DNA of 31,512 bases from a virus, in the IMG/VR virus record IMGVR_UViG_3300009182_003894, positions 1 to 31,512 of that record. The stretch is one strand, 5' to 3'. Position 1 is the stretch's first letter. Every line of letters begins with the position of its first letter. The translations under genes and the position numbers were made by a program. The notes beneath the pieces are model-generated. The model searched no databases, was not told the origin of the DNA, and was given only the letters and a program-made list of their open reading frames with translations. Positions 2,187-24,952 of the stretch are shown here, piece by piece.

Positions 2187-2215
2187 TAATAACTTGATAG
2201 TTTTTGGAGCTTACA

Positions 2216-5200: not shown

Positions 5201-8200
5201 TTTGTAGGAGCTGTTTTAACTGCTACGACTTTAACACTCTCAAGTAGTTATGCAAATGCTCTTGCCGGAACATATATAACTTTAACTCCAGCAGCTACTA
5301 TTACTGGTACTACTTTTACAGCAACTGGTAATATTATAAGCGGAATGTTTGTAAGCGGTTCTGCAACAATTACAGCACCATTACAAATAACAGCACAACT
5401 AACTGGTGCAAGTAGTACAGCGGCAGCGAATACAGCGTCAACAGGTTCAAGCGGAAGTTTTAACTTAACCGTAACCAGCAATACTGGTATTGCTGTTGGT
5501 ATGTTTGTATCGGGTAACGGCGGTGCTATCAGCGGTATTCCAGCAAATACATATGTAACTTCTATCAATGGCACAACAATAAAATTAAGCAACGAATTAA
5601 CTTCAGGCGTTAGTACTACAGTTTATTTCTTCTATGCTGGCGGAACAGGAACATATACTGTTAATAATATTAATGGTTGGTCAATTAGTAGTACATCATT
5701 AGTTGCAAGTTATAATACAGCTAACATGTTCTATGTACGAAATGGCGCCGGCATCAGAAATATGACTTTATCTGGTTTAACAGGAACGTTAACATCTGCA
5801 AATGCATTTGGATCGTACAGACCAACAGCAGGTGCTTATGTAAGTTTAGATCCAGGCACCGGGCCAGCAGATTCTTCAGTGTGGATTTTTAGAAAATCGC
5901 CTTATGTACAAAACGTTACTACATTTGGTACTGCATGTGTTGGATTAAAAATTGACGGAACATTGCACAACGGCGGAAACAGAAGTATAGTTGCCAACGA
6001 TTTCACACAGGTACTAAGTGATGGTATTGGTTGCTGGTGCACTGGATCTAATGCCTTAACTGAATTAGTTTCAGTGTTTGCATACTATAACACAGCAGGA
6101 TATCTAGCAGAAGCTGGTGGTAAAATTCGTGCTACTAATGGAAATAGTTCTTATGGAACATTTGGTGTAGTAGCAGAAGGTTACGATGCTTCAGAAACTC
6201 CAATTATTGCAAACGTAAACAATAGAGCATTTCAAGCACAGATTGCTAACGTATATACAGATAATTCAAATAAAATTTACCGTTTAGAATATTCTAATGC
6301 AGGTTCTGCTTACAATACAGCAACATATTCGTTTAATAGTTCAACTGGATATGGAGTAAGTGCTGTTGCAAATGAATTTAGAGATAATGCTGCTTATGAA
6401 GTTCGTTTATTAACAAACGGATCTAGTTATGTTACCATTACAAATACAGGACAGACTGGTAATACATACCAAATAACAATTGCGGCAACTGATATTGGAA
6501 TTACTAATGCATACAAAGGTATGCGATTAAATCTAATTGGCGGTGCAGGTGTAGGACAAACAGGTTTTGTTGCTGATTTCAATTCAGGAAGTAAAATTGC
6601 ATTAATGGCTAAAGAAAGTTTTGCACCTTTAACTATTACTGTGACAACAAATGCTAGTGCAAGCAATACCGCCGCAATCATTAATCCTAATACGACTGGC
6701 GCAGGCGGTGGCTATATGACAGCTACTGGAACACTTACTGGATCATTTACTCCTGGTATGATTTTAACTAGTGCTGGAACTATTACAGCTGGAACATATA
6801 TTACTAGTACTAATAGTGGAACAATTGGCTCAGCAAGTCTTGCAAGTGTTATTGGTAGCACTACTGGAACAATTGGCTCAATTACAGGAACTGGTCCCTG
6901 GTCAGCCACTATTACCAACATGAGTTCAACAACTGGATTTTATGTCGGTATGCCAATAACAGCAACAACTGGTACTGGAACATTATACGGTGGAAGTCCT
7001 ACTAGCGTATTAGTTACAAGTATTGTTAGTACTACTAGTATAACATATACAGTTTTTGGAGGTACTACGCCAACAGCTGGTACGGTAACTAACGTTTCCA
7101 GTATATTGTTATCAGCTGGCGCAACAAGTACTGGTATAACACCGTATGCTTTATTGCTTGGTGGAGCTATAACAGCTGGAACTTATATTGTAGCGCAAAT
7201 TAGCGCAACAGGAGCCACAGCTCTTGCAACAGCTACATTCACTGGAACTAGCGGAACTACTTCAATAACATTGACTTCGTTTACCGTTGGTTCTATTAGT
7301 AATGTAGTAATTGGACAATTTATTGCACCAATTAGCGGTATGCTTGCTAACACATATGTAACTGCGGTTAACTATCTTACAGGTATAATTACTATTAGTA
7401 ACACGTTAGTCGGTAACGTAAGCGGGTCAACAAGTGTTTACACAGCTGGCGGATTAGGAACATACGGTATTAATCAAACTGCAACTGGAACGCCAACAAC
7501 AAGTTTAAGCTATAGTGTCAGTGCAAGTCAAACACGTACTAGTGCAGCTATTTCTGCTACACAAAATACATTAACAGTTGGTAGCAACGTTAGTGTTTAT
7601 AACGGCATGCCTATGTATGTAAGCGCCACGGTAGGAACAAATTTATTACCTGCTACATTATATTATGCAATGGCTGTAGTTCCTAACAGTAATTTATTCA
7701 GTGTTGGTACTAGTAGCGTTGCTACAAGTGCAATAATAATTACTAGCTCATCACCATCGCCTGTATCAGTATATGCAGCTGGGTGGGATCACGTTGTTCT
7801 AGGAACTCCTATTGTAGCTAATTTAGACGTTACCACTCAATACATTATTGAACCTCGACTAACATTCTCCAGTCCATCTTTCACTCCAACTAGTTCTACA
7901 CAAATATCAGGAACATGGATTGATTGTGTATACGGTGATGATGTTGTTACATATTCTAACATAAGTAGTACAAGCTCAGGCGCAGGAACACTAGCTACGT
8001 TTAATGTAGTTAAAACTGGAGTATCTTACGCAGTTACCCAAAGTGCATCCGGCGGCGGATATGTAATTGGGGAAGTACTAGTAATAGCAGGAACTAGTTT
8101 AGGAGGCTCGGCAAGTAATGCCATTAATATCGTAGTAACTAATATTGGAGTTAGCGGATCAATCACAAACTTTACATTTACTGGTACAGGTAGCGGTGGT

Positions 8201-10420: not shown

Positions 10421-12217
10421 ATGGGAAGAAGAGTCAATACACTGGGCGGAAATCCTGGAGGCGGTTCGTCGGTAACGAAGACCGCTACAACAGCATTTAC
10501 AGAAACATATTTTAGTAGCGGACAATTAACACAACTTACAGCAACTAGTGCAGGTTATAATGTTACATTGCCGGCGCCTAGTGCTTTTCCAAAAGTATCA
10601 GTTTCATACTGGAATGATTCTACTTACACGATGACTGTAACAACTCCTACCGGAGTATTTGCAGGCACCGGCGGAAGTCAAGTAACTGTACAAAGTATTG
10701 CTGCAGGTCAAACAATACAAATTGTATCAGACGGTACAAACTATTATTTAGAATGGGAAAATTTACCAGCAAGATTAGCAACATCTGGTGGATTCCTAGC
10801 CCAAGCAGGCGCAGGTAATGCAGTTGCGTGGTCAAGTCCTTTTATTAGTGTACCAACAACATCGTTGACTCTTGGTACATATAACAAAAGCAATACAAAC
10901 GTATCAAAATCACTAGCTGCATCATCTACAAACGGTTCTAGTTTAAGTTATGCAATTACTAGCGGTACTACGCTATTAACAGGATTATCATTAAACAGCT
11001 CTGGTGTACTAACTGGTACCATGGCTAACGCTGCAAATGCATCATATACTGTCGATGTTACTATTACAGACACTGTTGGCACTCAACGAGCTGTGTATAC
11101 ATTTTATGTGTCGTTACTAAACCAAATTCCAGTATGGAGTACAACAAGTATTGGTAGTGCTTCAGGGTTGGTTAACAGTTCGTTTAGCACAACAGTTGTT
11201 GCTACCGCAGGTACTGGAACGATTACATATTCATTAGTTAGCGGAAGTTTACCTCCTGGTTTAAGTTTAAACGGTACTACGGGTGTTATTAGCGGTAACT
11301 GTAGTCAATCTCCAGGCACACAAACATATAATTTCACAATTAGAGCTACAGACGGCCCTTATACAACTGATCAGGCACTTTCTTGGGCAATTACAACCAC
11401 AATACCTTCTGGAACACAATTGTATACTGGACGCGGCGGCCACTCAAGTTTTGGTGGTAACAGCAACTCAAACGGCGAACAAAACTACTACACTTGGACA
11501 GCACCATCAGGTGTAAACAGTGTGTCTGCAATTGTTGTAGGTGGTGGCGGCGGCGGTTACTATGGTTGGGCAGTTTGCGGCGGTGCCGGTGGCGCATTAA
11601 TCTGGGCCAACGGTATACCTGTAACTCCAGGTTCTGGCTATTTTGTAAACGTAGGAAATGGTGGTTGTTGGAGTCAATCTCCAGGCGGTTGTAGTGTATT
11701 TTGCGGAGATAGCACATTTATGATTGCCTACGGCGGATGCTGTGGATGCGGCGCAGGTTGCGCATACATGGGTGGATCAAACACAGGCTATTGTGCAAGT
11801 TATGGAAACGTAGCATGGTCCAGCACAGCTGGCGGCGGCGGCGGCGCAGCTGGTTATTGCTGTAACAATACATATACATACTGTAACTGTGGATACGGCG
11901 GCGGTGGTGGCTCAGCTTGTCAATATCATAGCTCAACTTACGGTACAGCAGGCGGCGGCGGCGTTGGAATTATTACCCAAGGAACCAACGGCGCTGGCGG
12001 CTCAAACGGAATTTCAGGATGCGGAGGATCGGGTGGCCAAAACGGTGGACATGGAGAACCATATAGCAACGGTATTGGCAACGGTTACGGCCAAGGCGGT
12101 TGCTACGGCGGTGGCGGCGGCGGTGGCGGAACATCACACGGCGGCGGTTGGGGCGGCACAGGAGCGGTTAGAATTATTTGGGGTTCAGGCAGAAGCTACC
12201 CTAATGCTTCAAGTTAA
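10421..12217 (+). CDS. Ig-like and Gly/Cys-rich tail adhesin (598 aa)
   Basis: ATG with GGAG seven bases upstream. The N-terminal 140 residues are a short fibre-attachment-like region. Residues about 140-235 and 237-321 are two Ig-like/cadherin-like domains; the second has the SGSLPPGLSLN...GVISG pattern of putative Ig (He_PIG) domains. From about residue 328 the protein becomes glycine-rich with long Gly runs, aromatic residues and 16 cysteines, including paired CC. It ends GAVRIIWG, an ending I associate with glycine-rich fibre tips in marine T4-like phages. Gly-rich tips are receptor-binding in T-even adhesins, so a receptor-binding role at the end of a fibre is inferred. The Cys density is unusual and suggests disulfides or metal binding in the mature virion. 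A chaperone-like gene follows after 25 bases, fitting an adhesin/chaperone pair. Confidence 0.8.
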   Translation: MGRRVNTLGGNPGGGSSVTKTATTAFTETYFSSGQLTQLTATSAGYNVTLPAPSAFPKVSVSYWNDSTYTMTVTTPTGVFAGTGGSQVTVQSIAAGQTIQIVSDGTNYYLEWENLPARLATSGGFLAQAGAGNAVAWSSPFISVPTTSLTLGTYNKSNTNVSKSLAASSTNGSSLSYAITSGTTLLTGLSLNSSGVLTGTMANAANASYTVDVTITDTVGTQRAVYTFYVSLLNQIPVWSTTSIGSASGLVNSSFSTTVVATAGTGTITYSLVSGSLPPGLSLNGTTGVISGNCSQSPGTQTYNFTIRATDGPYTTDQALSWAITTTIPSGTQLYTGRGGHSSFGGNSNSNGEQNYYTWTAPSGVNSVSAIVVGGGGGGYYGWAVCGGAGGALIWANGIPVTPGSGYFVNVGNGGCWSQSPGGCSVFCGDSTFMIAYGGCCGCGAGCAYMGGSNTGYCASYGNVAWSSTAGGGGGAAGYCCNNTYTYCNCGYGGGGGSACQYHSSTYGTAGGGGVGIITQGTNGAGGSNGISGCGGSGGQNGGHGEPYSNGIGNGYGQGGCYGGGGGGGGTSHGGGWGGTGAVRIIWGSGRSYPNASS

Positions 12218-12869: not shown

Positions 12870-12887
12870 ACAACTAACAAATTAAAA

Positions 12888-12908
12888 AATCCCGCAAGTT
12901 GCGGGATT
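12888..12908. terminator. Symmetric intrinsic terminator between convergent genes
   Basis: An 8-bp perfect stem (AATCCCGC / GCGGGATT) closes a 5-base loop. Read on the minus strand, the stem is followed by a run of six T, so it is a good terminator for the leftward enzyme unit ending at 12916. On the plus strand the T-tract is weak (ATTCTTAT), but it may still stop transcripts from the chaperone gene. Confidence 0.75.
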
Positions 12909-12915
12909 CTTATGA

Positions 12916-14100
12916 TTAAATTTTAAAATAATTGTAACCAAATACCGTATCTACTAAATCAAGTCCGCTTGGACCATAGACCCAATTAAAATTACCATAA
13001 AAGTTGTTTGTTTTTATTTTTTTCATCAACAACAATGCATTGTGAAAACTCATACTTTCATTTAATTTTTCTTTTGATACGTTTACAGTTTTATTCCAAA
13101 ATTCAGTACTATAAATAGATCCGCCGTGATATTTGAAATAAAACATATCTTTTAATGCATGAACGTGTGTAATGTATCTAGAATTTATTGCTATGTCGTC
13201 AGTTTCGCCTGTAATATATTCAAAGAACAATCTATTAATTGCATCATAATTCCATAAAGAATTACCAAACATTGGTTCAAAGAATAATGCTGTGTTTCCA
13301 TTTTTAATTATTCTATTCTCTAAAACGTTTTTTGCATAGTAAGGAGTAAATTTGTATTCAATATTTTCTAATTCTTCTATTGAAATGTTTATTTCTTTAG
13401 CAAAGTTTTTCTTAGCATCTTCTATACTAACAAGATTATCGTTAAACAAATATCCATTACTAATTCTAGTAGACAAAGGAATCTGAAACATCCACCCATC
13501 GACAGTAGCACGATGTACAGTATATTGCCAATCTGTACCATCGCCCGGAATATTATGTATCAGCGCATGATTTAATACTGGACTTTGTAGAACAAAATAA
13601 TTATCTAAATCATTAGAAAATCCTCTACTATCCATTACAAAATCATATTGATATTCTGCATCATCTACAGTTACAGTTGCATGTTCTACTCCATTTACTA
13701 ACGAATTAACATGTCCTTCTATTATTTTGAATTTATTACCCCATGTATTTTTTAGTCTGGGCAATGCAAAATCTTTTAATTTAAATGTATTAAAATGCAA
13801 AGCAAATACGCCGTCGCCCAGTGTTAGTAGCGGCCCATGAAAATCTTGATCCCTCCAATTTTCATACTTAGTAGTCCATTTGATTGTTGCATCAAGATGA
13901 TGCATGTCTTTTTCAAAATCAAAATTTAAACCTGCTTTGAGTGCTTTTGAAAATGTTCCGTTAGTACTTTCTCCGATACCAAAGGCTGGAATGTTAGGAT
14001 TATATATCAGTGTAACTTCCCAGCCTGCCGGAAGGTATGCTAAAAAATGGCAAGCAGATTGTATACCAGAACTGCCGGCGCCTAATATTGCCAGTTTCAT
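12916..14100 (-). CDS. Short flavin-dependent halogenase-like protein (394 aa)
   Basis: This belongs to the FAD-dependent tryptophan-halogenase superfamily. It has an N-terminal Rossmann motif GAGSSG (7-12), a GIGEST motif (41-46) and a lysine in ATIKW (K74) at the place of the catalytic Lys of PrnA/RebH. WMFQIP (203-208) replaces the usual WxWxIP, and FEP (E275) stands where halogenases have (F/I)EPLES. It is about 100-130 residues shorter than typical members: the stretch between K74 and the dinucleotide-binding core is compressed and GLSxGF before EP is lost. It could be a diverged halogenase, a monooxygenase-like relative, or a non-catalytic partner. Its ATG overlaps the stop of the upstream carbamoyltransferase by one base (TAATG), implying translational coupling. 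It is the last gene of the leftward unit. Confidence 0.75.
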   Translation of the reverse strand: MKLAILGAGSSGIQSACHFLAYLPAGWEVTLIYNPNIPAFGIGESTNGTFSKALKAGLNFDFEKDMHHLDATIKWTTKYENWRDQDFHGPLLTLGDGVFALHFNTFKLKDFALPRLKNTWGNKFKIIEGHVNSLVNGVEHATVTVDDAEYQYDFVMDSRGFSNDLDNYFVLQSPVLNHALIHNIPGDGTDWQYTVHRATVDGWMFQIPLSTRISNGYLFNDNLVSIEDAKKNFAKEINISIEELENIEYKFTPYYAKNVLENRIIKNGNTALFFEPMFGNSLWNYDAINRLFFEYITGETDDIAINSRYITHVHALKDMFYFKYHGGSIYSTEFWNKTVNVSKEKLNESMSFHNALLLMKKIKTNNFYGNFNWVYGPSGLDLVDTVFGYNYFKI

Positions 14101-15890
14101 TAGCTGTTCCTGATAGTAATTAGTTTGTTGAATTCTGGTAAAAACAGATATTCGATATCAGAATGCTGTAACGTCCAAATAGCATCTTCTAGTGTTTCAA
14201 CTAACGGTTCGCCACCTAAGTTGAAGCTAGTATTGAACAAGATGGGACATCCTGTTGTATTATGAAATTCTTTGATTAAGTTGTAGTAATGAAAGTTTTG
14301 TTCTTCCGTAACTGTTTGTATACGGCAAGTTCCATCTACGTGGATAATGCTTGGAATTTTTTCAGAAACACCAGGCTGGCAATTTACAGCATACATCATA
14401 AAAGGACTGTCTTCCATGCCACGTAAATCAAACCACTCTTTAGCATATTCTGCTAAAATACTACCAGCAAATGGTCGGAAATATTCACGATGTTTTACAC
14501 CATTAACAAAATCTTTTCCATCTTCAAACCGTGGATCAAATAATACACTTCTATTTCCTAATGCCCGTGGCCCGTTTTCGCTAGAGCCTTGGAATAATGT
14601 GACAATGTTTTTCTTAGTTAATAACTCTACAATATCACTATAAGTAGCATCTTGTATTTCAACATCATGTTGCATTGATATATCGATAACTTGTTCCGTT
14701 GTGTAACTATGAGCTGGGCCTAAATACAATGTATCATGTTTTGCTGGAGTACGATTTCCTGTTAATGAATGCCAATGCATTAGAGCTGCTCCAATAGCGG
14801 TACCAGCATCATTACTAATAGGTTCTACATAGAAATTAATACCGTTGTCTTTAAGAGCTTGTAGGTAATGATAATTAGCAACACAATTTAATCCATACCC
14901 GCCGCTTAACACAACATTTTTATGTCCGCTTATATCTACGGCTTGTTGAATTAATTTAACAACTTGAGATTGTGTTTGTGTCTGGCAAGCATATGCAAGA
15001 TCTCTTCGATTTTCTAGCATTGTCAAATCATCATTATTATGTTGATCTAAAAATTCAAATAATCCAGTATTAATCAATGCACCGTTAGGGTATGTTGGTA
15101 CTACAATATTTCTATTAGCAAGAGGTGCTATACTTGTATCATCAAAAAGTGGAGGTATTGCAGGATTATCTTTACCATAAGGAAATAACCCCATAGTTTT
15201 ACCAGCTTCAATAGGACTCCAACCGCAATATTGAGTTACAGCTTCGTATGTTTTAGTAATGCCTGCTCGATCTGTAATTAAAGCGTGATGCGTCTTACCC
15301 GGCTCATCGTACAAACCGCTATCAAAATCTTGAATTAAGTAACCGGGTGCCGGCCCACGTACACCAATATGCTTATAAAGCGTACTAAATTTACTTGGAT
15401 AATTACAAGTGTATATACTTTCAGTTTCCCATCCAGTTACATTTTCATTACCTAGATTCAATGGAATAAAAGTTCCAGCGCCATCAACAATTACTGCAAC
15501 TGCTTCAGTAAATCCAGATCGATAAAATGCACACGCTGCATGCAATTTATGATGTATATGACTTAAATCAATAACTTGTGGATGATTATAAATGTCTGCT
15601 TTACGATCAATTAATCCTAGTTTACGTGCTAGGCCTGTATAAACGTCATCGCCTGTAAAATCAATTTTACCAGCAGTGTCTTTTAAACTTTGTGTATGTG
15701 CAATTACAATATAATCTAATTTATCTGTATAATCAAGTATTTTTAACATTGCAGCAAACGGGCCGCCGTCGTATTTTTTACGACTTAGTCTTTCTTCTTC
15801 GATAGAAAATACTATTTCTCCGTCTTTGAGCAAGCATACACTAGCATTATGCCCTCGAGTAACTCCTGCAATCCACGATGTTTTTTTCAT
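14100..15890 (-). CDS. NodU/TobZ-family O-carbamoyltransferase (596 aa)
   Basis: The family transfers a carbamoyl group from carbamoyl phosphate, through an adenylated intermediate, to a hydroxyl of a sugar or natural product. The protein is full length with both domains. The N-terminal part has RGHNAS (12-17; the His is at the place of TobZ His14), IEEERLSR, a His-rich HIHHKLHAA block and VDGAGT. The C-terminal part has LSGGYGLNCVAN, ENGPRALGNRS, REYFRPFAGS and LFNTSFNLGGEPLV. All blocks expected for activity are present, so it is probably functional. Seven bases separate it from the upstream oxygenase, whose TAA stop overlaps this gene's AAGG ribosome-binding site. The acceptor is unknown; the neighbouring GT9-like enzyme suggests a sugar hydroxyl, and a halogenated or hydroxylated product is the alternative. 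Confidence 0.9.
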   Translation of the reverse strand: MKKTSWIAGVTRGHNASVCLLKDGEIVFSIEEERLSRKKYDGGPFAAMLKILDYTDKLDYIVIAHTQSLKDTAGKIDFTGDDVYTGLARKLGLIDRKADIYNHPQVIDLSHIHHKLHAACAFYRSGFTEAVAVIVDGAGTFIPLNLGNENVTGWETESIYTCNYPSKFSTLYKHIGVRGPAPGYLIQDFDSGLYDEPGKTHHALITDRAGITKTYEAVTQYCGWSPIEAGKTMGLFPYGKDNPAIPPLFDDTSIAPLANRNIVVPTYPNGALINTGLFEFLDQHNNDDLTMLENRRDLAYACQTQTQSQVVKLIQQAVDISGHKNVVLSGGYGLNCVANYHYLQALKDNGINFYVEPISNDAGTAIGAALMHWHSLTGNRTPAKHDTLYLGPAHSYTTEQVIDISMQHDVEIQDATYSDIVELLTKKNIVTLFQGSSENGPRALGNRSVLFDPRFEDGKDFVNGVKHREYFRPFAGSILAEYAKEWFDLRGMEDSPFMMYAVNCQPGVSEKIPSIIHVDGTCRIQTVTEEQNFHYYNLIKEFHNTTGCPILFNTSFNLGGEPLVETLEDAIWTLQHSDIEYLFLPEFNKLITIRNS

Positions 15891-15897
15891 AATAACC

Positions 15898-16512
15898 TTA
15901 TTTTAATTCTAAATCTGCGCCTGGAACTTCAGAACCAATCGTTCCTCGTGCAAATGTATTAAATGCAATGCTAATTCTTTCATTCTGTGTTAAGTTTGGT
16001 TTTACATAATGAAAACAAGTACTAGGAAATATAATAATCTCACCGTCTTCAACCGGTACTGTCCATTCAATAGAATTAGCAGGTGTATATTCAGTAGATT
16101 TCATGTTTAAGAAAAATGGCGGAGTTAATCGATTAAATGATATACTTGGTTGACTATCGCTAGTTTTAAAATAATACACACCCGATAATATACTGTTAGT
16201 ATGACTGTGCGCAGAATGTTGTTTTTGAAAACCAGTAACATTAATCCAAGAATTAGTCATGTACAGATCTACTTCAATTTTCATTAACTCTTTCATATAA
16301 GAATGTACGTGTAACATTAACTCGTTTTTTAAATTTGAAAATATAGGGTTATCAAGTATCCAACTATTGTTAGATATATCATTGCCTAATCCTTGTTCAA
16401 GAACCTCGGTAGAATAAATTTCAGTAACCTCGGATGATGTTAATTCTCTACCTAATGAGCTCTTATAAACTATAGTAGGAAATAATGGATAAAGAGTAGA
16501 TTGTTTAATCAT
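15898..16512 (-). CDS. 2OG-Fe(II) oxygenase, PF13759-like (204 aa), copy 1
   Basis: It has the pattern of the small 2OG-Fe(II) oxygenases of the TIGR02466/PF13759 type: an N-terminal YPLFPTIVY segment, then HSHTNSILSGVYYF with H102 and H104, a late FPSTCFH (H168) and ERISIAFN with R179 suited to binding 2-oxoglutarate. Such enzymes usually hydroxylate a substrate using 2-oxoglutarate and oxygen; the substrate here is unknown. Which of H102 and H104 binds iron cannot be settled by eye. It overlaps the upstream GT9-like gene by four bases (ATGA). It is a clear relative of the oxygenase on the other side of that gene (shared ERISIAFN and similar His spacing). Confidence 0.8.
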   Translation of the reverse strand: MIKQSTLYPLFPTIVYKSSLGRELTSSEVTEIYSTEVLEQGLGNDISNNSWILDNPIFSNLKNELMLHVHSYMKELMKIEVDLYMTNSWINVTGFQKQHSAHSHTNSILSGVYYFKTSDSQPSISFNRLTPPFFLNMKSTEYTPANSIEWTVPVEDGEIIIFPSTCFHYVKPNLTQNERISIAFNTFARGTIGSEVPGADLELK

Positions 16513-17444
16513 TTGGATATATTTTTAACAACAGAATTAATTACGGTTTCGATTTGATCAGGAGTAACTCTCATCATGCTTTCATTATTTGAATCTGCTA
16601 CTTCGTCAAGAGACATACGAATAGGACTGTACATTCTTCGATTTTCACCAAAATCAATTATATCAAATCTATCGCATCCAGGATACGATACATTTTCTTT
16701 AAATGTCGAACCAAGCACCACGGTGGCAGGTTTAGAAAGGGCATATGCAATATGCTGTCCTACACTATCACATCCTAAAAAATAATCAGCTGCGTTTATT
16801 AATCCAAACCATTTGCGTAAGTTAATATTTGTGATTTGATTAAAATCCTGACCACAAATATTTTTAAAATCTATAGCATTTTCACTCATGACAACTACTG
16901 TATATTTTTTTTCTAATTTTTGCACTATTGATATAACATCGTCCATAATAAAAGATTTACCGTAAATATCAGGAGTAGTTTGCTCCTTAGTCAGATTAGA
17001 TCCTCGACCAAAAGGCTGAAAAATTACAACTTTCTTATTTTTACTTTCTTTTTTGACGGTATTCAAAGTTTCAATACCGCCAAACAATTCTTCATTGCTT
17101 AATACTAGCTTAGGAGGAGGGAGATATCTGAGATCTTTTTTGTTTATTAGCAAATCAAATGCTTGAGAAATACTAGCTTTTTGATTATAATATTCCCAGA
17201 CTTGGTATGGCTCTGGCGACACAAAATTCATATCTACTAACTTGTCTCGAAATAAATTTCTATGAGCATAGTCATAGCATCTTTTGAATAATGTAGGATG
17301 TCCCTTAAAGAGATCAATACCATACTCGATAATAATAATAAAATCGTCATCCGGATTTTCTTTTTCGTACAGTTCAAACGCAGGAATTGAACATATAATT
17401 CTTCCTGCACCACCGTTAATAAAAAATGCTGTATTTCTTTTCAT
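16509..17444 (-). CDS. GT9/heptosyltransferase-like glycosyltransferase (311 aa)
   Basis: The N terminus INGGAGRIICSIPAFE resembles the first Gly-rich loop and helix of GT9 heptosyltransferases. The C-terminal half has FQPFGRGSN, then VVVMSE, and LGCDSVGQHIAYALSKPATVVLGST. The last corresponds to the GT9 nucleotide-sugar site (usually G.DSGP.HLAAALGKP...FG.T). The family moves a sugar from an ADP- or other nucleotide-sugar to a glycan. Homology is moderate, so a GT-B fold with sugar-transfer activity is likely but donor and acceptor are unknown. It lies between two paralogous oxygenase genes, four bases after the upstream one and overlapping the downstream one by four, so all three are probably translated together. 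Confidence 0.7.
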   Translation of the reverse strand: MKRNTAFFINGGAGRIICSIPAFELYEKENPDDDFIIIIEYGIDLFKGHPTLFKRCYDYAHRNLFRDKLVDMNFVSPEPYQVWEYYNQKASISQAFDLLINKKDLRYLPPPKLVLSNEELFGGIETLNTVKKESKNKKVVIFQPFGRGSNLTKEQTTPDIYGKSFIMDDVISIVQKLEKKYTVVVMSENAIDFKNICGQDFNQITNINLRKWFGLINAADYFLGCDSVGQHIAYALSKPATVVLGSTFKENVSYPGCDRFDIIDFGENRRMYSPIRMSLDEVADSNNESMMRVTPDQIETVINSVVKNISK

Positions 17445-17448
17445 AATT

Positions 17449-18066
17449 TTATATTTCTAAATATGTTAATTTTTCTTTTGAGCCTAATGCACCTTTAACA
17501 AATACATTGAACGCAATGCTAATTCTTTCTTCATCTGTGTTATTAACTTCGACACCATGTATAAGAGAAGACGGAAATACTACTACTGAATTATTATTAA
17601 TCGCAATTTTAAAACTAGTCGAGTTAAATATTCCATAATTACTGCTTTCTAAACTAATAGTCTTTTTATCATCGGTAAAAAATACAATGTTATCTTCTTT
17701 AATTGTACTTAGATAAAATACTCCGCTGATTAAACTATTAAAGTGATAATGCTTATGGTGACTAGTTGATGGTTTAGTAATATTTGCCCAAGACTGAGTT
17801 ATATAAAATGTATTTTCATCCCAAAACATAATCTTTTTTGTGTATTCATTAATTGCAAATTCAACAATTTTTTTAATTTCACATAATTCTTTATTTTCTA
17901 AAATATCTGTATCTAAACTAGCCAAATTTCCGTTTTCGTTTGTTCTAAATTCTAGATTTTTAACATAGTCAATCTCAGCATCAAATCTTTTTCTGTCAAG
18001 ATATTCGTTGCATATAAAAACAGGTTTAGAAAATAACGGATAGATTTCACTCGTCATTGTGTACAT
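17449..18066 (-). CDS. 2OG-Fe(II) oxygenase, PF13759-like (205 aa), copy 2
   Basis: Same family and layout as the oxygenase two genes downstream: YPLFSKPVF at the N terminus, HYHFNSLISGVFYL (H106, H108), FPSSLIH (H170) and ERISIAFN (R181). The candidate ligands have nearly the same spacing as in the other copy (62 against 64 residues). The first ATG has an AAAGGA only two bases away; a second ATG at 18057 (MTSEIYPLF) is 11 bases from it and matches the paralogue's N-terminal length, so the true start is uncertain. Either start lies inside the last codons of the upstream halogenase, giving a 20- or 11-base overlap. Probably an active hydroxylase with unknown substrate. Confidence 0.8.
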   Translation of the reverse strand: MYTMTSEIYPLFSKPVFICNEYLDRKRFDAEIDYVKNLEFRTNENGNLASLDTDILENKELCEIKKIVEFAINEYTKKIMFWDENTFYITQSWANITKPSTSHHKHYHFNSLISGVFYLSTIKEDNIVFFTDDKKTISLESSNYGIFNSTSFKIAINNNSVVVFPSSLIHGVEVNNTDEERISIAFNVFVKGALGSKEKLTYLEI

Positions 18067-19642
18067 TATCCTTTAAATATTGATATAGACTAGGGCACAA
18101 TTCAGCTGCACGTTGCCATTTTTTTTGAAGTATTGCACGTTTGCGTACAAATTCGTTGACTTCGTTCTTGGGATTTTGCCTAAACGCTCTCTCGGCATAC
18201 AATAACTGCAATTTACTCATTATATGAAAATGCATACCTGTTGCAACATATTGTAAACCGCCCTGCTCGTTATGCCTAAAAACAGCAAGTTTCCTCCAGG
18301 CTAAATCAAAAAAAGTATTACTTGTACTTTTAATTGACATGTCTACTATTCCTGGGCAAAACGTTTTTGACGTTATGTTATCCCAGAAATTAGTATCGTC
18401 TCTGATACTCAATGCATAATGAAGAGAAACAAATTCAGCAAATGTATTAAATGTACCACCGACTTGTGAATTATAAACGTCTCTATCCCATTGGGTAATA
18501 TGTGTTCTTTGTAAAACAGATACTAAAGATAACAAAAATTCATGTACTGAATATAATCCATTACTTTCTAACGGTTCAATAAATCCAGCACTCAACCCTA
18601 TTGCCACCACATTTTTAACCCAAGTACGTTCGTGTATTCCAACTCGCATAGGAATATCTCTAAACTCTAAAGTATCTACTTGCTCCTGTGTTCGAGGAAC
18701 AGCCATTTTATCACTCATTAGATATTGTTTAAATTCTTCTTTAGCATCTTCTGGAGAAATAAAGTTATCGCTGTATACATAACCTGTTCCTAGTCTAGTC
18801 CATAATGGAATATTCCAGCACCAACCGTGACCAATTGCGGTACAGTTAGTATACGGTTCAAGTTCTTTTTCCTTATCAACATACGGAACCTGGCATGCCC
18901 ATGCTCGATTACTTGGCAAGATGTCTGCATAAGATTTAAACGGTTCTTTCAATGCACCTGCTAGCAACATGCTTTTCCAGCCAGTACAATCTACAAATAA
19001 ATCTGCAGTAACTTCTGTTCCGTCAGATAATGTTAATTTATCAATACCAATTTCAGATGTTGAAACATCAGTAACTGTGCCTGTAATTAATTTTACACCC
19101 TTAGGTAAACTGTAACTTTCTTTAAGCCATCGACCAAATAATACCGCATCAAAGTGATATGCAACATGCATTTCTGGACGATACTCATCAAATAGTCCAT
19201 GCTCGTTTTTACTAAATTTATTAGACTCGATTAACGGCATGTTAGAAAGATAAGTTCTACAATAATCTTCAACAGGTGTATCTGGATAAAGCGCACGTTT
19301 AGCTTGCCACTCCTGAAGTCCGTTTGGCGCATCTGTTAAAACTGGAGCTCCAAACGGGTAATGAAAAGATCCTGCATCTTTTTCATAAAAATCAGTAAAC
19401 TTAATACTCATTTTGTAAGAAGCATTAGTGTATTTCATGAAATCTTTTTCATCAATTCCTAGTGAATACATCCAATGTCTTATAGTTCCTAGAGTGCTTT
19501 CTCCCACGCCCACAATAGGCATATCGGGACTTTCGATTACGACAATTTCTCTTTCAGGAAAAAAATTAATAAGCGTAGAGGCAGTCATCCAACCAGCAGA
19601 TCCTCCTCCTAATACAACTATTTTGTCGATTTTTGTTCTCAT
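18047..19642 (-). CDS. Flavin-dependent (tryptophan-type) halogenase (531 aa)
   Basis: This is the most canonical halogenase here. It shows GGGSAG (12-17) for FAD, VGVGEST (44-50), a Lys in NASYK (K77) matching PrnA/RebH Lys79, the family-defining WxWxIP as WCWNIP (274-279), and GFIEPLES with E356 matching the second catalytic residue. Length is typical. The family uses FADH2, supplied by a separate flavin reductase, and halide to make HOCl or HOBr, which reacts through the Lys; no reductase gene is seen in the window. I chose the ATG at 19642 over one at 19687 because AAAGG lies eight bases upstream and the Rossmann motif then starts normally; the longer form would run into the divergent control region. 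It is the first gene of the leftward unit. Substrate unknown; iodide or bromide use is possible, as for the cyanophage enzyme VirX1. Confidence 0.9.
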   Translation of the reverse strand: MRTKIDKIVVLGGGSAGWMTASTLINFFPEREIVVIESPDMPIVGVGESTLGTIRHWMYSLGIDEKDFMKYTNASYKMSIKFTDFYEKDAGSFHYPFGAPVLTDAPNGLQEWQAKRALYPDTPVEDYCRTYLSNMPLIESNKFSKNEHGLFDEYRPEMHVAYHFDAVLFGRWLKESYSLPKGVKLITGTVTDVSTSEIGIDKLTLSDGTEVTADLFVDCTGWKSMLLAGALKEPFKSYADILPSNRAWACQVPYVDKEKELEPYTNCTAIGHGWCWNIPLWTRLGTGYVYSDNFISPEDAKEEFKQYLMSDKMAVPRTQEQVDTLEFRDIPMRVGIHERTWVKNVVAIGLSAGFIEPLESNGLYSVHEFLLSLVSVLQRTHITQWDRDVYNSQVGGTFNTFAEFVSLHYALSIRDDTNFWDNITSKTFCPGIVDMSIKSTSNTFFDLAWRKLAVFRHNEQGGLQYVATGMHFHIMSKLQLLYAERAFRQNPKNEVNEFVRKRAILQKKWQRAAELCPSLYQYLKDNVHNDE

Positions 19643-19736
19643 CTTGATTGCCTTTCTAGTAAAGTAATTATCATAAATTTTATGCACCCTACTAGGTTAT
19701 GACTATATAATAGCATACAAAAATCAGGAAATCAAG
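19643..19736. promoter_or_regulatory. Divergent promoter region of the enzyme cluster
   Basis: These 94 bases separate the first genes of the leftward and rightward enzyme units. On the plus strand TATAAT at 19706-19711 is a good -10 box without a clear -35, and AGGAA at 19726-19730 is the ribosome-binding site for the ATG at 19737. On the minus strand a TATGATAAT-like -10 and AAAGG precede the ATG at 19642. A 13-base perfect inverted repeat (CATAAA T TTTATG, 19672-19684) lies between the two starts and could bind a regulator. No T4-like late box is present. Confidence 0.55.
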
Positions 19737-21209
19737 ATGAATGAAAAATTTAAAATCAATGTAGTCGGCAGCGGAACTGCCGGGTTGATTTCTGCTTTGA
19801 TTTTAAAAACACGATTTCCAGATTATAATATTTCAATAATTTGCTCTAAAAAAATTGGTATAATTGGAGTAGGGGAAGGATCAACTGAACACTGGCACGA
19901 GTTTGCTTCTTTTGTAGGAATAAATCTTGCAGACATGATTAAACAAACAGATGCAACATTTAAAATTGGAATTGTATTTAAAGACTGGGGTGTTCCTGAT
20001 TATATGCACAGCATTCAAAATGGATACGATGAACTAGTGGGCGAATACCCGTACATCTACGGCAGGTTAATTTCACAAGGATTTGAATCTAGTAAATTAT
20101 CTGGAGAGTCATTCTGGAAAAATAAATTAAATTCACGTTACCTGAAAGAAAACCAGTCCCCAGTGGCGCAATACCATTTTAATACTTTTAAGTTAAATGA
20201 ATTTTTATCTAAAATTGCTACAGATAAAGGAATTGAAATTATCAACGATGAAATAACTGATGTTATTTTAAATGAAGCTGGCGAAATAGATTATATTGCT
20301 AGCACTACTTCTACTTATAAAAGCAATTTTTATATAGATAGTACTGGCTTTAAAAAAATATTAATTTCTAAAATGGGTGCAAAGTGGATAAGCCATAGCA
20401 AGTATTTAAAAACTAATTCAGCAATTGTATTTCAAACGTCTGACACAGACAACTATAACATGTGGTCGTTATCTCAAGCAATGAAATATGGGTGGATGTT
20501 CAGCACTCCAACATACGGTCGTTGGGGTAACGGATACATTTATGATGATGAGTTCTTAACTCCAGAACAAGCCCAACAAGAGGTAGAAGAATTTCTAGGA
20601 ACACCGATTACGTTAGGTAAACATATTAAGTTTGACCCAGGTTCCGTGGACCGAGCATGGATTAATAATTGTTGTGCAATCGGGCTCAGTAGTAGCTTTG
20701 TGGAGCCTCTAGAAGCTTCTAGCATTGGTACCACTATCCAGCAAACATTTATGTTAATGCATAAATTAGTAAATTATAATGAGACTGTAATAGCAAATTA
20801 TAATAAATCTTTTAATGACATTATAGAAAATATTCGAGATTTTATTGTTTTACATTTTGTAACACCGAGACAAGATACAGCTTTTTGGCAAAAAATTTCT
20901 AATGTACCTTTACCGGAAAGTCTAAAACAAAAAATGAATGTTTGGAAAACTAAGTTGCCCATACGAGAAGATTTTTCAGGACTTAGCAGATACGTGCTGT
21001 TTAAAGAATTACATTTTCTATTAGTATTGCATGGTTTAAAATTATTTAATATTGATTCAATATTAAAAGAATTTGACTCCCAAGATCAGGAAATTAAAAA
21101 TCGAGCTGATCGGATTATAGACGAGCTTACTGAATACTATAAAGCTGATAATTCTGAAGTTATATCACATAAAAAAGCATTGACATTTATAAGAGAAAAT
21201 ACATTATGA
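19737..21209 (+). CDS. Flavin-dependent halogenase-like protein (490 aa)
   Basis: The protein has GSGTAG (11-16), GVGEGST (44-50), a Lys in DATFK (K76) at the catalytic Lys position, WMFSTP (253-258) in place of WxWxIP, and SFVEPLEAS with E323 at the second catalytic position. Lys and Glu are therefore kept while the WxWxIP signature is changed (second Trp to Phe, Ile to Thr). Marine viral halogenases are a diverged branch of this family, so halogenation remains plausible, but a changed specificity or a flavin monooxygenase-like activity cannot be excluded. First gene of the rightward unit, with AGGAA upstream. Its last four bases (ATGA) overlap the next halogenase-like gene, so the pair is probably made together. 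Confidence 0.82.
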   Translation: MNEKFKINVVGSGTAGLISALILKTRFPDYNISIICSKKIGIIGVGEGSTEHWHEFASFVGINLADMIKQTDATFKIGIVFKDWGVPDYMHSIQNGYDELVGEYPYIYGRLISQGFESSKLSGESFWKNKLNSRYLKENQSPVAQYHFNTFKLNEFLSKIATDKGIEIINDEITDVILNEAGEIDYIASTTSTYKSNFYIDSTGFKKILISKMGAKWISHSKYLKTNSAIVFQTSDTDNYNMWSLSQAMKYGWMFSTPTYGRWGNGYIYDDEFLTPEQAQQEVEEFLGTPITLGKHIKFDPGSVDRAWINNCCAIGLSSSFVEPLEASSIGTTIQQTFMLMHKLVNYNETVIANYNKSFNDIIENIRDFIVLHFVTPRQDTAFWQKISNVPLPESLKQKMNVWKTKLPIREDFSGLSRYVLFKELHFLLVLHGLKLFNIDSILKEFDSQDQEIKNRADRIIDELTEYYKADNSEVISHKKALTFIRENTL

Positions 21210-22690
21210 AAATAGTAGTCATCGGTGGAGGCACAGCCGGAGTAATGGCGTCGACTTATTTTAAAAGTTATTGGGGCGAATTAGTTGAAGTAGTGTCTAT
21301 TTACGATCATAGTAAACCAGGAATTGGCGTTGGCGAAAGCCTTACTATGATGTTTGATAATTACCTCAGGGGAGTTGGAGTTACAACAGTAGAATTAGTT
21401 AAGCATTGTAATGCTACAATTAAATTAGGATTAAAATTTAAAAATTGGACTAAACCTGATCATTGGTGGTTTCATAATTTTCCTGTTAACGAATGCATGA
21501 ATCGGCTTGACAGAGTAGCACAACAATTTAATTTACTAGACGCTTACGACATGGCTAATGGAACTTATGATGGCGGACAAGGTTATAGTAAATTTTATTT
21601 TGAAAATAATGTAATTCCTGATGCTAATAATTTATTATATCGTCATGCATTGCATGTAGATGCTACATTAGTTGGAAGATATATTGAGAAAAAATTTAAA
21701 GACCGTATTAAAACAATTGATGCTATTGTAGAAAACGTTGAAGTAGAAAATAATAATATTAAAAGTATTAGATTAAACACTGGCGAAATTATCACAGCCG
21801 ATTTATTTGTAGATTGTACAGGATATCAACGAGCATTGATTAGCCAACTTAATCCCGAATGGATTGATATATCTGAACAATTACCCACAGATAGAACAAT
21901 TCCTAACCCAATATTTAAACATTATGATTATATTCCACCCTACACAACAGCTGAAGCTACTAAAAATGGCTGGATATTAGATGTTCCGTTAAGTAATCGT
22001 CGAGGCACTGGCTATGTTTATTCAAGTAAGTTCATGACCGACGAAGAAGCTAAAATAGATTTTAACGCATGGTTATTAAAAAATCACAATGTTGAATTAC
22101 AATCAGACAGAGTTATTAAATTTAATAATGGTTATTTCAAAGAATCTTGGATTGGAAATTGTGTTGCAATCGGACTAGCCAGCGGGTTTGTGGAGCCGTT
22201 AGAGGCTACTAGTTTACATCATACATATCTTCAATTAGATATTATGACCAAACTTAACAATTTTAGTCCGTTACCAATGGATCGTAGATCTTACAATAAA
22301 GTACTTCAGGATGTGTATACAAATAGTTTTGAATATGTAAGGCATTTTTATAATACCAATAGAACAGATTCTGAATTTTGGAGATATTTAACCAACAATA
22401 AACCAGACTGGTTATTAGATTTAGAAGAAAAAATGTCAACAAGTTATTTAAATAATTTTGATAGTATATCTACTTCAGATGTAAAAATGTTTACATCCAT
22501 GAATTTTAACTGTATTGCTTACGGTCATGGAAAATATGATAATCAAGAAAATATAAAAAAATATTTAACCACTAAGTGGTTACAAAAATATGCTGAACAA
22601 GTATCTCACACAAATCAACAAATAAAAAATAGTGTACACCAAAATCCTGTAGATCACAGACAGTGGGTTGACTCTATTTTAAACAACTAA
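21206..22690 (+). CDS. Flavin-dependent halogenase-like protein (494 aa)
   Basis: Another superfamily member: GGGTAG (7-12), GVGES (41-45), a Lys in NATIK (K73), WILDVP (256-261) in place of WxWxIP followed by RRGTGYVYSSKF, and GFVEPLEAT (E330). DLFVDCTGYQRALI matches the core of the canonical copy, while the WxWxIP site differs from all the other three. The Lys and Glu pair is intact, so catalysis is plausible. Translationally coupled to the upstream halogenase-like gene by an ATGA overlap. The next gene, an oxygenase-like protein, follows after ten bases with AGGA in the gap. This and its upstream neighbour may recognise different sites on one substrate, or form a heteromer; neither is shown by the sequence. 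Confidence 0.82.
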   Translation: MKIVVIGGGTAGVMASTYFKSYWGELVEVVSIYDHSKPGIGVGESLTMMFDNYLRGVGVTTVELVKHCNATIKLGLKFKNWTKPDHWWFHNFPVNECMNRLDRVAQQFNLLDAYDMANGTYDGGQGYSKFYFENNVIPDANNLLYRHALHVDATLVGRYIEKKFKDRIKTIDAIVENVEVENNNIKSIRLNTGEIITADLFVDCTGYQRALISQLNPEWIDISEQLPTDRTIPNPIFKHYDYIPPYTTAEATKNGWILDVPLSNRRGTGYVYSSKFMTDEEAKIDFNAWLLKNHNVELQSDRVIKFNNGYFKESWIGNCVAIGLASGFVEPLEATSLHHTYLQLDIMTKLNNFSPLPMDRRSYNKVLQDVYTNSFEYVRHFYNTNRTDSEFWRYLTNNKPDWLLDLEEKMSTSYLNNFDSISTSDVKMFTSMNFNCIAYGHGKYDNQENIKKYLTTKWLQKYAEQVSHTNQQIKNSVHQNPVDHRQWVDSILNN

Positions 22691-22700
22691 AGGATATAAC

Positions 22701-23282
22701 ATGATTATAATTGATAATTTACTTTCATCATCGGTGTTTAAACTGGTTACTGACATTGTGGAATTTCATTCATTTCCGTGGAACTTTAATAAAAATAAAC
22801 CTGCTATTTTCACAAATGTACCTTTAGACAACGGCCAAAAATATACACCCTTTGCCAGTACATTGGAACCATTATTGTTTGCAGCTGTTGAACAGACCGG
22901 AGCGCAAGTTGATGAGATTTTTAGGATACAGGTTACTATGCAAACTAAAACTGATAAACCTTATGTAGATAATCCAACTATCAATATTCCGTTTCCACAT
23001 ACATCGGCAATATTGTATCTAACAGACTCGACCGCATCTACCAAAATCTTCAACGAAACTTACGATTTTCACACAGATATTTCTAAATACAAAGATTTTA
23101 AAGATGCTAGTCATGGATGTTTTAAGGAAAAATATAACGGTATCTCTACAGTAGCTAAAGAAGTAGAAGCAAAAGCCAACAGGTTTGTCTGTTTTGACGG
23201 AGCTCAGTATTATTCAGATTCTTCACCGACTGAAGAAGATTATAGAATAGTTATTAACTTTGATTTTTCAACTCGGGCGTAA
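22701..23282 (+). CDS. 2OG-Fe(II) oxygenase-like protein, probably lacking iron ligands (193 aa)
   Basis: The overall pattern resembles the prolyl-4-hydroxylase-like 2OG oxygenases common in marine T4-like phages: PHTSAILYL followed by a short turn, then a late NRFVCFDG and RIVINFDF (R182 suits 2-oxoglutarate binding). In those relatives, as I recall them, the first ligands are HxD and the distal His sits in YYHA. Here these places read Y88-V89-D90 and YYSD (S172), and the usual NDSDGDT turn is TDSTAST. If this alignment is right, both iron-binding histidines are gone and the protein is unlikely to be an ordinary oxygenase. It may be a scaffold or binding protein for the two halogenase-like enzymes just upstream. 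The 3' end overlaps the opposing cupin gene by 29 bases. Confidence 0.6.
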   Translation: MIIIDNLLSSSVFKLVTDIVEFHSFPWNFNKNKPAIFTNVPLDNGQKYTPFASTLEPLLFAAVEQTGAQVDEIFRIQVTMQTKTDKPYVDNPTINIPFPHTSAILYLTDSTASTKIFNETYDFHTDISKYKDFKDASHGCFKEKYNGISTVAKEVEAKANRFVCFDGAQYYSDSSPTEEDYRIVINFDFSTRA

Positions 23283-23643
23283 GCTGACTATCGCCGGGCA
23301 CAATTCTATAATTGTCTTCTACAGAATCTGCTGTACTAACTTCTAGAATTGTACTCCCGGGCAATAGTGCTTCTAATTGGTGTGGTTGCAAAGGATTATT
23401 GTGCCACACATCTCCTTGATCAAGATTGCGCTCAATTAAAGCACCATTTGTTGTATCTATGTATCTTAGAATAAATTTACCTGAATTTACAAACCAAGTT
23501 TCAGTTTTTTCTTTGTGAAAATGCATACTAAATTTTGACCCTGCATCTGTAAAAACCATTATTTTGCCGCAATAATGATCGTTAGTAGCCCAAATAAGCT
23601 CATACCCCCAACCTTTAGTAACCATGCCTTCTTGTCTGCTCAT
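23254..23643 (-). CDS. Cupin, sugar isomerase/epimerase-like (129 aa)
   Basis: KGWGYELIW near the N terminus resembles the KPWGYE of type II mannose-6-phosphate isomerase cupins. The metal-site pattern is complete: H41 and H43 in HFHKEKTE, E48 in the same block, and H88 in LQPHQLEAL. One cupin barrel of this size can be a sugar-phosphate isomerase, an epimerase or a plain binding protein; activity is not proven. AAGGA lies seven bases before the ATG. It is the only single-gene unit of the cluster, facing the rightward halogenase unit and overlapping its last gene tail to tail. Making or modifying a sugar would fit the GT9-like enzyme and carbamoyltransferase nearby. Confidence 0.72.
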   Translation of the reverse strand: MSRQEGMVTKGWGYELIWATNDHYCGKIMVFTDAGSKFSMHFHKEKTETWFVNSGKFILRYIDTTNGALIERNLDQGDVWHNNPLQPHQLEALLPGSTILEVSTADSVEDNYRIVPGDSQLTPELKNQS

Positions 23644-23682
23644 ACTTGTTCCTTGATATAGTGTGTTAATTTAGCATATTTT

Positions 23683-23700
23683 ACACTAGTATGCTAGTGT
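23683..23700. promoter_or_regulatory. Perfect inverted repeat between divergent genes
   Basis: ACACTAG and CTAGTGT form a 7-bp perfect dyad around a 4-base centre, in the 115-base gap between the cupin start and the next structural gene. It is followed on the plus strand by TTTTGAC. Because it lies upstream of both genes, an operator or promoter element for the cupin is more likely than a terminator. Alternatively it could stop read-through into the structural block. Confidence 0.35.
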
Positions 23701-23730
23701 TTTGACTGGATGCAAACAAGGTCCAGATTG

Positions 23731-23738
23731 AATAAATA
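23731..23738 (+). promoter_or_regulatory. Candidate T4-like late promoter (AATAAATA)
   Basis: It has seven of eight bases of the T4 late consensus, 20 bases ahead of the ATG of the first gene in the right structural block. That gene has only a weak ribosome-binding site (GAG). Confidence 0.5.
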
Positions 23739-23758
23739 TATGATCATAGCGAGCAGAC

Positions 23759-24952
23759 ATGAATTTTACTGATTATTTTATAAAAGGCCTGGGTAATACT
23801 CTAAAATTTAGAGACAGGACCGGATTTTCCTTCCAAGGAAAGATGTTCTCTATTGCACCAAATACTGTAATAGATAGTTGGTATCTCCAAGACTTTAAAA
23901 GTGCAAGTTATAAAATAGCAGTAGAATACGGTAAAGATGATATAGAACATGTAGAAATATTACTATCTGCAAGGGACGATCAAGCGTCAATAACTGTATA
24001 CGGTCGCACAAATTTAGGAAGAGATCTAGTTCAATATACTGCAACAGTTACTAATTCAGTAGTGAATTTGATAGCAAGCCCGTATTATGCTGCCAACGGC
24101 ACTACACCATTATTAGGTGTCAATCTTGTACTAAACGCAACATACAGTCAGCGGGTTAATAACTTAGAAATACATTCTACCACAGGTGAAACAGACAGTA
24201 CCGGAGGCCAAATAGGCACTGGGCTTAATTGGACTGGCAGCGCATTACCTGGTGTAACTCTTGACAGTTATGGCCGTGTATTTCTCAGTAATATTGCACA
24301 AGTAATAGTACCAGGGCAAGCAATCCTGTCAGCAGGTTTTATATTAGACACTATTAATTTTGTAAATACCGATACCAGTATTGGTATTACAACTAATACT
24401 AGTACAAATACTATAACATTTACCACGTTGGGCAACATTCCTAACTTGACTGTTAATAATTCTATAAACATAACGGCTGTTAGTACATCCAGTATTGATA
24501 ATACCACAATTGGATCTCTAGTTGCAAAACCAGCTACGTTTACGTCGCTGTCATCCAGCACTGTAATTGCTACTGGCGTTAATCAGTTGATTACAATATC
24601 TCCAACAGGAACAGGCGCTGTGGTAATGTCATCCGGTGCAACAGGATCGATTAATAGTATGACAATAGGTGCCAACTCTGCAAAATCAGCGGCATTTACC
24701 GCATTGTCATCCAACAATGCAACAAGTTTAGTTTCGACTAATCAAAATTTTACAATATCAACCACTGGTAGTTCAACATTTAGTGCATCTTCTGGTACAC
24801 GCGGATCTATGAATAATATAACAGTAGGCAACTCAACACCTAGAAGTGGTGCATTTACTACTTTACAAATTACCAATCCCGGAACAACTCCTACTAGTCT
24901 TATAACAGTAGGTAACTTAACAAAATTATTACTTGGAGTAATAGCAGCATGA
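23759..24952 (+). CDS. Tail/baseplate-attached fibre protein with VTIG repeats (397 aa)
   Basis: The N-terminal 150 residues (SIAPNTVIDSWYLQDFKSASYKI, HVEILLSARDDQASITVYGRTNLGRDL) match a domain I recognise from marine T4-like virion proteins, where it probably joins the protein to the tail. A short G-rich linker follows, then from about residue 245 three repeats of the form (S/G)I(N/D)N(T)TIG...FT(A/T)LS. Such repeats are beta-structured and fibre-forming. No catalytic motif is visible. The stop overlaps the next gene's start (ATGA), and the repeat family continues there. Confidence 0.75.
   Translation: MNFTDYFIKGLGNTLKFRDRTGFSFQGKMFSIAPNTVIDSWYLQDFKSASYKIAVEYGKDDIEHVEILLSARDDQASITVYGRTNLGRDLVQYTATVTNSVVNLIASPYYAANGTTPLLGVNLVLNATYSQRVNNLEIHSTTGETDSTGGQIGTGLNWTGSALPGVTLDSYGRVFLSNIAQVIVPGQAILSAGFILDTINFVNTDTSIGITTNTSTNTITFTTLGNIPNLTVNNSINITAVSTSSIDNTTIGSLVAKPATFTSLSSSTVIATGVNQLITISPTGTGAVVMSSGATGSINSMTIGANSAKSAAFTALSSNNATSLVSTNQNFTISTTGSSTFSASSGTRGSMNNITVGNSTPRSGAFTTLQITNPGTTPTSLITVGNLTKLLLGVIAA

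Follow-up and report, generated by a model that had tools for sequence, protein, structure and literature searches.

The DNA analysed here, called the window, is the 31.5-kb virus record IMGVR_UViG_3300009182_003894, and the subject of this study is a block of enzyme-like genes at coordinates 12916-23643, situated amid tail-fibre genes. Protein families were assigned via Pfam, PHROGs, and NCBIfam. The original prediction, made from the sequence letters, described ten enzyme-like genes, arranged as two divergent units with a convergent cupin gene, and all ten open reading frames (ORFs) are present (Table 1). Read 5' to 3', the minus-strand unit is hal2-oxB-gt9-oxA-carb-hal1 and the plus-strand unit is hal3-hal4 followed by a 2-oxoglutarate (2OG) oxygenase-like gene, toward which the cupin gene converges. 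Overlaps of 1-20 bases had been claimed and were measured as 1, 4, 20, and 4 bases within the units; the other within-unit neighbours are spaced by 4-10 bases and the convergent 2OG-like/cupin pair overlaps by 29. Neither a backbone synthase nor a precursor peptide was found among the block ORFs, as had also been stated. The GC content of the block is ~29-37% versus ~36-48% in the flanks.

The genes of the window were identical (100%) to those of a 345,369-bp IMG/VR contig (loci L008/L088/L168, our genome G001), and the window therefore belongs to a phage genome of very large size. The parent phage is T4-like and large, with a genome of 345 kb, and we take its origin to be freshwater from our reading of the IMG metagenome identifiers. 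Photosynthesis-gene evidence for a cyanobacterial host was dropped, psbA being absent from this 345-kb contig. By megablast, the block gave zero matches to cultured phages. The left flank encodes a 2609-aa CBM_5_12 fibre, a Gly-rich fibre tip, in which Trp, Tyr, and Cys are conserved inside the poly-Gly region, and a tail-assembly chaperone; the right flank encodes fibre-like proteins, a subtilase-type protein, and a virion structural protein.

Table 1: Features of the window and of the related locus in the same genome.
Feature	Coordinates	Strand	Basis or remark
ATAAATA copies before structural genes	2180, 10390, 23732, 28231, 28313		motif scan
Tail fibre, long, CBM_5_12 repeats; alternative substrate candidate	2204..10033	+	family matches
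Gly-rich fibre-tip protein (He_PIG + Gly_rich_2-like), proposed substrate	10421..12217	+	family matches
Tail-fibre assembly chaperone, PF16778	12243..12869	+	Pfam
Intrinsic terminator, both strands matched, between fibre chaperone gene and hal1	12885..12911		
hal1, short PF04820 flavoprotein, 394 aa	12916..14100	-	Lys present, EPMF
carb, NodU/TobZ-type O-carbamoyltransferase	14100..15890	-	PF02543 + PF16861
oxA, 2OG-Fe(II) oxygenase, PF13759/TIGR02466 type	15898..16512	-	HxH...H conserved
gt9, GT9-like (GT-B) glycosyltransferase, 311 aa	16509..17444	-	phrog_8954
oxB, 2OG-Fe(II) oxygenase, PF13759 type	17449..18066	-	HxH...H conserved
hal2, putative VirX1-like flavin-dependent halogenase, GTG start	18047..19687	-	full motif set
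Divergent intergenic region, 49 bp, TATAAT/TATTAT-like boxes	19688..19736		no late-promoter motif
hal3, PF04820 flavoenzyme	19737..21209	+	Lys + Glu; GWMFSTP, FVEPLEASS in place of motifs
hal4, PF04820 flavoenzyme	21206..22690	+	Lys + Glu; GWILDVP, FVEPLEATS in place of motifs
2OG-oxygenase-like protein, no Pfam family	22701..23282	+	phrog_274
Phosphomannose isomerase (PMI)-like small cupin	23254..23643	-	Cupin_2 below cut-off, phrog_7851
Fibre gene 3' of block; relatives come after gt9-carb in many phages	23759..24952	+	neighbourhood comparison
Second carbamoyltransferase/NifU-like/hal1-like locus	L233:8498-11660 (G001 ~308.5-311.7 kb)		

The block is a conserved cassette with its own terminator, lying in the fibre slot of this T4-like phage. 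The order hal2-oxB-gt9-(oxA)-carb was found on 14 contigs that count as different at a hal2 identity threshold of 95%, including the one of the window, and all 14 contigs with the full module have a tail-fibre chaperone nearby; hal4 occurs on most of them and hal3 on half. The near-inseparable core of the cassette is gt9-carb. Of 63 dereplicated carbamoyltransferase genes, 48 have gt9 upstream at a distance of no more than 150 bp and a further 14 have it one gene away (62/63 in total). The pair occupies the same slot in cultured marine cyanophages: in S-SSM7, S-CAM3, and Sf-FS3 it has fibres on one side and fibre or neck genes on the other, and in P-SSM2 it is surrounded by fibre genes. In L003, L208, and other cyanophage clusters, the phage carbamoyltransferases have the gt9 family (T4-GC 302, annotated "hypothetical protein") as a constant companion without a name. 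A search of viral contigs for the same combination and order had been proposed as the test of the original prediction, and the genes are together and ordered in homologous phages, a recurrence that rules out an accidental assembly.

The product of gt9 scored 16.9 with Pfam GT9 (PF01075), where the gathering cut-off is 22. Its AlphaFold2 model had a predicted local distance difference test (pLDDT) value of 92.7, and the best PDB matches of this model were the GT9 protein 3tov (E 2e-10), TibC (3e-10), WaaF 1psw, and WaaC 2gt1, from which gt9 is predicted to have a heptosyltransferase fold. We regard it as working like GT9, in a distant or sister family. Its N-terminal motif, compared by sequence, is an invariant GGxGR (G11 G12 G14 R15). 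The earlier assignment as a GT9-like enzyme was thus borne out by fold and is refined here to heptosyltransferase-like, tied to ADP-heptose-type genes of the same genome. TibC is a protein heptosyltransferase of autotransporter adhesins (PMC4358343). With the TibC/AAH BAHT enzymes gt9 shares the fold (4rap/4rb4) and an adhesin-like neighbour, here with an ADP-heptose-type supply in the same genome, but its identity to them is 13-16%. Assignment of gt9 to the BAHT (TibC) family was rejected: it does not have the four conserved Cys of the iron finger and, at its length, is too short for the N-terminal beta-barrel. The bacterial homologs of gt9, mostly on short MAG (metagenome-assembled genome) contigs, gave no informative cellular cluster and are probably phage-derived, because several have the same fibre-type neighbours.

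A trio of HldE kinase-, HldE adenylyltransferase-, and HldD epimerase-like genes is located at ~261-263 kb of the same genome, adjoining several 2OG oxygenases. Their best NCBIfam matches reached 150, 130, and 206 bits, respectively, all below the equivalog cut-offs, so that ADP-heptose-like is the safe wording. In the relative G002, the trio has a cupin inside. The clusters of S-SSM7 and S-CAM3 have HldE kinase- and/or adenylyltransferase-like genes together with an HldD-like gene and a small HAD-type phosphatase. No SIS_2/GmhA domain was found in the search for the ADP-heptose pathway. It was also observed that the cyanophage proteins named "phosphoheptose isomerase" (106-111 aa; L003:26055-26390 and L208:18597-18917) resemble the HAD capsule-biosynthesis phosphatase TIGR01689, and no SIS_2 domain was found in the genomes that carry them.

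All four halogenase-like proteins matched PF04820 (E 5e-31 to 9e-107) and have the GxGxxG flavin site and the active-site Lys, and the catalytic Glu of the EPLE motif is kept in hal2, hal3, and hal4. Two further motifs, WxWxIP and FxxPxxSxG, have been reported for active halogenases (PMC8407142); both are present in hal2 and absent from hal1, hal3, and hal4, with hal3 and hal4 missing WxWxIP and the Ser/Gly of the second motif. The original prediction spoke of halogenases in the plural, and this stood for hal2, which has every motif, while part of the signature is missing from the other three. The count of four was consequently cut to one canonical member and three motif-poor PF04820 relatives; judged by these motifs, we file hal2 as a putative halogenase and hal1, hal3, and hal4 solely as PF04820 flavoproteins. 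The Glu of EP.E is replaced by Phe in hal1 of this phage, where the compared orthologs have Glu, and EPMF is identical across three near-identical records (L008, L009, and L042). The frames of hal1 and of the 22701-23282 protein are open, yet catalytic residues kept by their orthologs are gone. That hal1 and carb work together is supported by a second carbamoyltransferase gene, which forms a tight succession with NifU-like and hal1-like genes at ~308-312 kb of the same genome. Judged by eye, this second locus lies near DnaK-, ClpS-, Hsp20-, and IscA-like genes.

The viral halogenases are associated with Gly-rich fibre genes. Counting an ORF as Gly-rich from 30 Gly per 100 aa upward, 42 of the 63 dereplicated clusters had one within 9 kb of their halogenase, versus none of the 30 carb clusters without a halogenase. 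Among cultured phages, halogenases behind or among Gly-rich fibre genes were seen in Syn10 (VirX1), S-RIM44, S-CREM1, P-RSM6, S-WAM1, P-TIM40, and Sf-CH11, several of them followed by rows of 2OG oxygenases; S-SSM7 is an exception, with a weakly Gly-rich neighbour. The AlphaFold model of the Gly-rich protein of the window (pLDDT 54.6) was set aside.

In carb, the Carbam_trans_N and C domains together cover the protein, and PDB matches were obtained with 7xb6, GdmN, and TobZ. Of 30 homologs, at least 95% share H113, H114, H117, D136, and D361, with HHxxH kept, and these His and Asp residues may correspond to the TobZ metal site. The protein at the end of the plus-strand unit has its HxD...H ligands replaced (NPTIN, QYY), where four orthologs retain them, and is probably a pseudo-enzyme. 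Its PHROG name, "DNA endonuclease V", was rejected. The same name (phrog_274/T4-GC 100) is attached to other 2OG-oxygenase-like proteins (L235:4248-4766 and L240:10254-10919), and it is probably wrong because the 2OG proteins of phrog_81 and phrog_61 match phrog_274 over the same residues. The cupin has the motifs KGWGxE and HxHxxxxE...H, presumably those of type II phosphomannose isomerases. Its relative in S-SSM7 has a weak GMP_PMI match, and relatives were found within ADP-heptose-type operons. The cupin of the original prediction is therefore present, but it resembles sugar isomerases instead of a free-standing oxidative enzyme. The PHROG name "cysteine dioxygenase" (phrog_7851) was likewise rejected for it; this member and the one at L003:26368-26769 look like PMI-like sugar cupins in heptose-type operons.

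The T4-type late motif ATAAATA occurs in 6 copies in the window versus 19 expected by shuffling, that is, more rarely than by chance, and five of the six precede structural genes (2204, 10421, 23759, and twice 28339), one of them 31 bp 5' of the Gly-rich tip gene. In the scan of the window no copy was found upstream of the block genes. Considering this and the terminator that sets the block apart from the fibre chaperone gene, the block probably forms a separate transcription unit outside the late class of this phage. A sigma-70 consensus scan of the window gave matches at chance level, so that promoters proposed for the module carry little weight. A 7-bp inverted repeat, ACACTAG-CATA-CTAGTGT, was seen within 23644-23758, 5' of the cupin gene, and is a possible operator. 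The arrangement is different in Syn10, where the halogenases are co-directional with the fibre genes and behind them.

Among known systems, the marine T4-like cyanophage clusters (S-SSM7, S-CAM1/3, P-SSM2, and Sf-FS3) resemble the block in gt9-carb, the PMI-like cupin, the slot, and, mostly, the 2OG oxygenases. They differ in having the heptose kinase, adenylyltransferase, and epimerase genes inside, which in this phage lie ~200 kb off, and in having at most one PF04820 gene, whereas the block has four. The P-SSM2 fibre region also has a gene annotated PF00082, as is the subtilase-type protein at 26973-28208 among the fibre genes of the window. VirX1, the Syn10 halogenase (PDB 6QGM), gave a full-length match with hal2 (336.8 bits), in which every motif is present, and both are near Gly-rich fibre genes; the retrieved stretch of Syn10 is without gt9-carb, although this phage has many 2OG-like genes besides its two halogenases. 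QhpG, a peptidyl-Trp dihydroxylase, is a flavoenzyme related to halogenases that hydroxylates protein Trp (PMC7876137). Its family model was weakly matched by hal1 and hal2, far under the QhpG cut-off, and the QhpC substrate and radical SAM partner are absent. In mycobacteriophages (Che8, Rita, and relatives), phage-encoded glycosyltransferases are thought to decorate virion proteins (PMC11256854), but the target there is the capsid and no carbamoyl or halogen tailoring has been reported.

Taking these observations together, we read the block as a tail-fibre maturation island, which would heptosylate and carbamoylate a nearby adhesin and tailor it oxidatively, and we give this reading a probability of roughly 45%. 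It is built on what was observed directly, namely, the presence, families, order, and partners of the genes, the fold, and the heptose-type genes of the same genome. The acceptor, the sugar, the order of the reactions, and the halogen are what we infer. The gt9 enzyme would attach heptose, or a similar ADP-sugar, to hydroxyl groups on a fibre protein or adhesin nearby, much as TibC heptosylates autotransporter adhesins, and carb would then cap the transferred sugar by carbamoylation. The oxygenases oxA and oxB (PF13759) may hydroxylate the Gly-rich tips specified by fibre genes next to the block, and hal2 may alter exposed aromatic residues on them, with hal3 and hal4 as putative oxidising or halogenating variants; hal1 and the 22701 protein are probably partners or decaying. 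The outcome would be fibres with changed receptor binding, stability, or recognition. The original prediction of a tailoring cluster, with the phage's own fibres among the possible substrates, survives in this form; between phage fibre and host glycan we lean to the fibre as acceptor, and a free natural product is unsupported.

Several observations weigh against fibre maturation. The fibre genes carry the late-promoter motif and the enzyme module does not. The fibre region is a hypervariable island, named the host-recognition cluster in pelagimyophages (PMC7029224), and hence location alone proves little. The fold search with gt9 cannot tell whether the acceptor is a protein or instead a lipid or glycan, and the scores of the ADP-heptose-like proteins are below the equivalog level. 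The association of halogenases with Gly-rich ORFs has a Fisher p of ~1e-10 that ignores shared ancestry; halogenases lie away from fibres in S-H35 and S-MbCM6, as does a third copy in S-RIM44, extra copies occur outside the slot, and poly-Gly fibre genes are also found in halogenase-free phages such as S-CAM3.

The absence of the late motif fits early or middle expression, as would be expected if the block remodelled the host surface, where carbamoylated heptose-like sugars and oxidised groups on lipopolysaccharide (LPS) or capsule would block competing phages or protect the infected cell. GT9 enzymes are mostly LPS heptosyltransferases, and such a role was proposed for glycosyltransferases of the same region in pelagimyophages (PMC7029224). 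We nevertheless consider it unlikely. The LPS of the studied marine Synechococcus is free of heptose (PMC4515613), so that cyanophage heptose genes, those of the marine relatives, are unlikely to serve the host core LPS. Moreover, a flippase- or polymerase-like gene is absent from the block, and the Gly-rich fibre association would be left unexplained.

Somewhat more improbable is a hot spot of unrelated auxiliary genes in which gt9 and carb cooperate and the halogenases and oxygenases have other, unconnected substrates. Apart from the hypervariability of the slot, this is consistent with the variable composition of the cassette between phages, with the many phages that have gt9-carb without halogenases or halogenases without gt9-carb, and with the lost catalytic residues of hal1 and the 22701 protein; the gene overlaps, the identical order on 14 contigs, and the pairing of a hal1-like gene with the second carbamoyltransferase argue the other way. 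Least probable is a small molecule made or altered to act on host or competitors (a halogenated indole or phenol, or a carbamoylated sugar, as in the PrnA/pyrrolnitrin proposal for cyanophages), since, although the halogenase, carbamoyltransferase, and 2OG families are known from natural-product pathways, VirX1 accepts many small aromatics for iodination (PMC8407142), and antibiotic-protection ideas have been published (PMC2984593, PMC9964418), the block has no scaffold enzyme or precursor peptide, for which a free natural-product pathway was demoted to a minor rival, its placement by fibre and fibre-chaperone genes is constant, three of the four PF04820 proteins do not have the motifs of known small-molecule halogenases, and gt9 is of glycan type.

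The components and simpler versions of the cassette are already known, related cyanophage clusters have been described, and carbamoyltransferase and prnA genes in cyanophages were catalogued in 2010 (PMC3037559). In the literature, of which our coverage is incomplete, three elements are apparently new: a version with four flavoenzymes, carried by a large freshwater-type phage; the interpretation of the constant partner of carb as heptosyltransferase-type, with a pathway in the same genome; and the association with Gly-rich tips, which offers a candidate substrate for VirX1-type enzymes. The native substrates of VirX1, of the cyanophage 2OG oxygenases, and of the NodU-like carbamoyltransferases are a standing puzzle; pyrrolnitrin, DNA repair, and 2OG drawdown are among the suggestions in print (PMC3037559, PMC2984593, PMC9964418). 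Linking heptose transfer to the Gly-rich tips turns this puzzle into one testable question, that of fibre modification. It is a more doubtful proposal that VirX1-type halogenases, like the numerous 2OG oxygenases of cyanophages, natively serve a phage-encoded, multi-step decoration of proteins, with fibres or adhesins heptosylated and O-carbamoylated and their Gly-rich tips halogenated or hydroxylated. If true, the puzzling viral halogenases would gain a testable natural target, and host recognition by phages would include an enzyme-made side-chain and sugar chemistry that is invisible in sequence.

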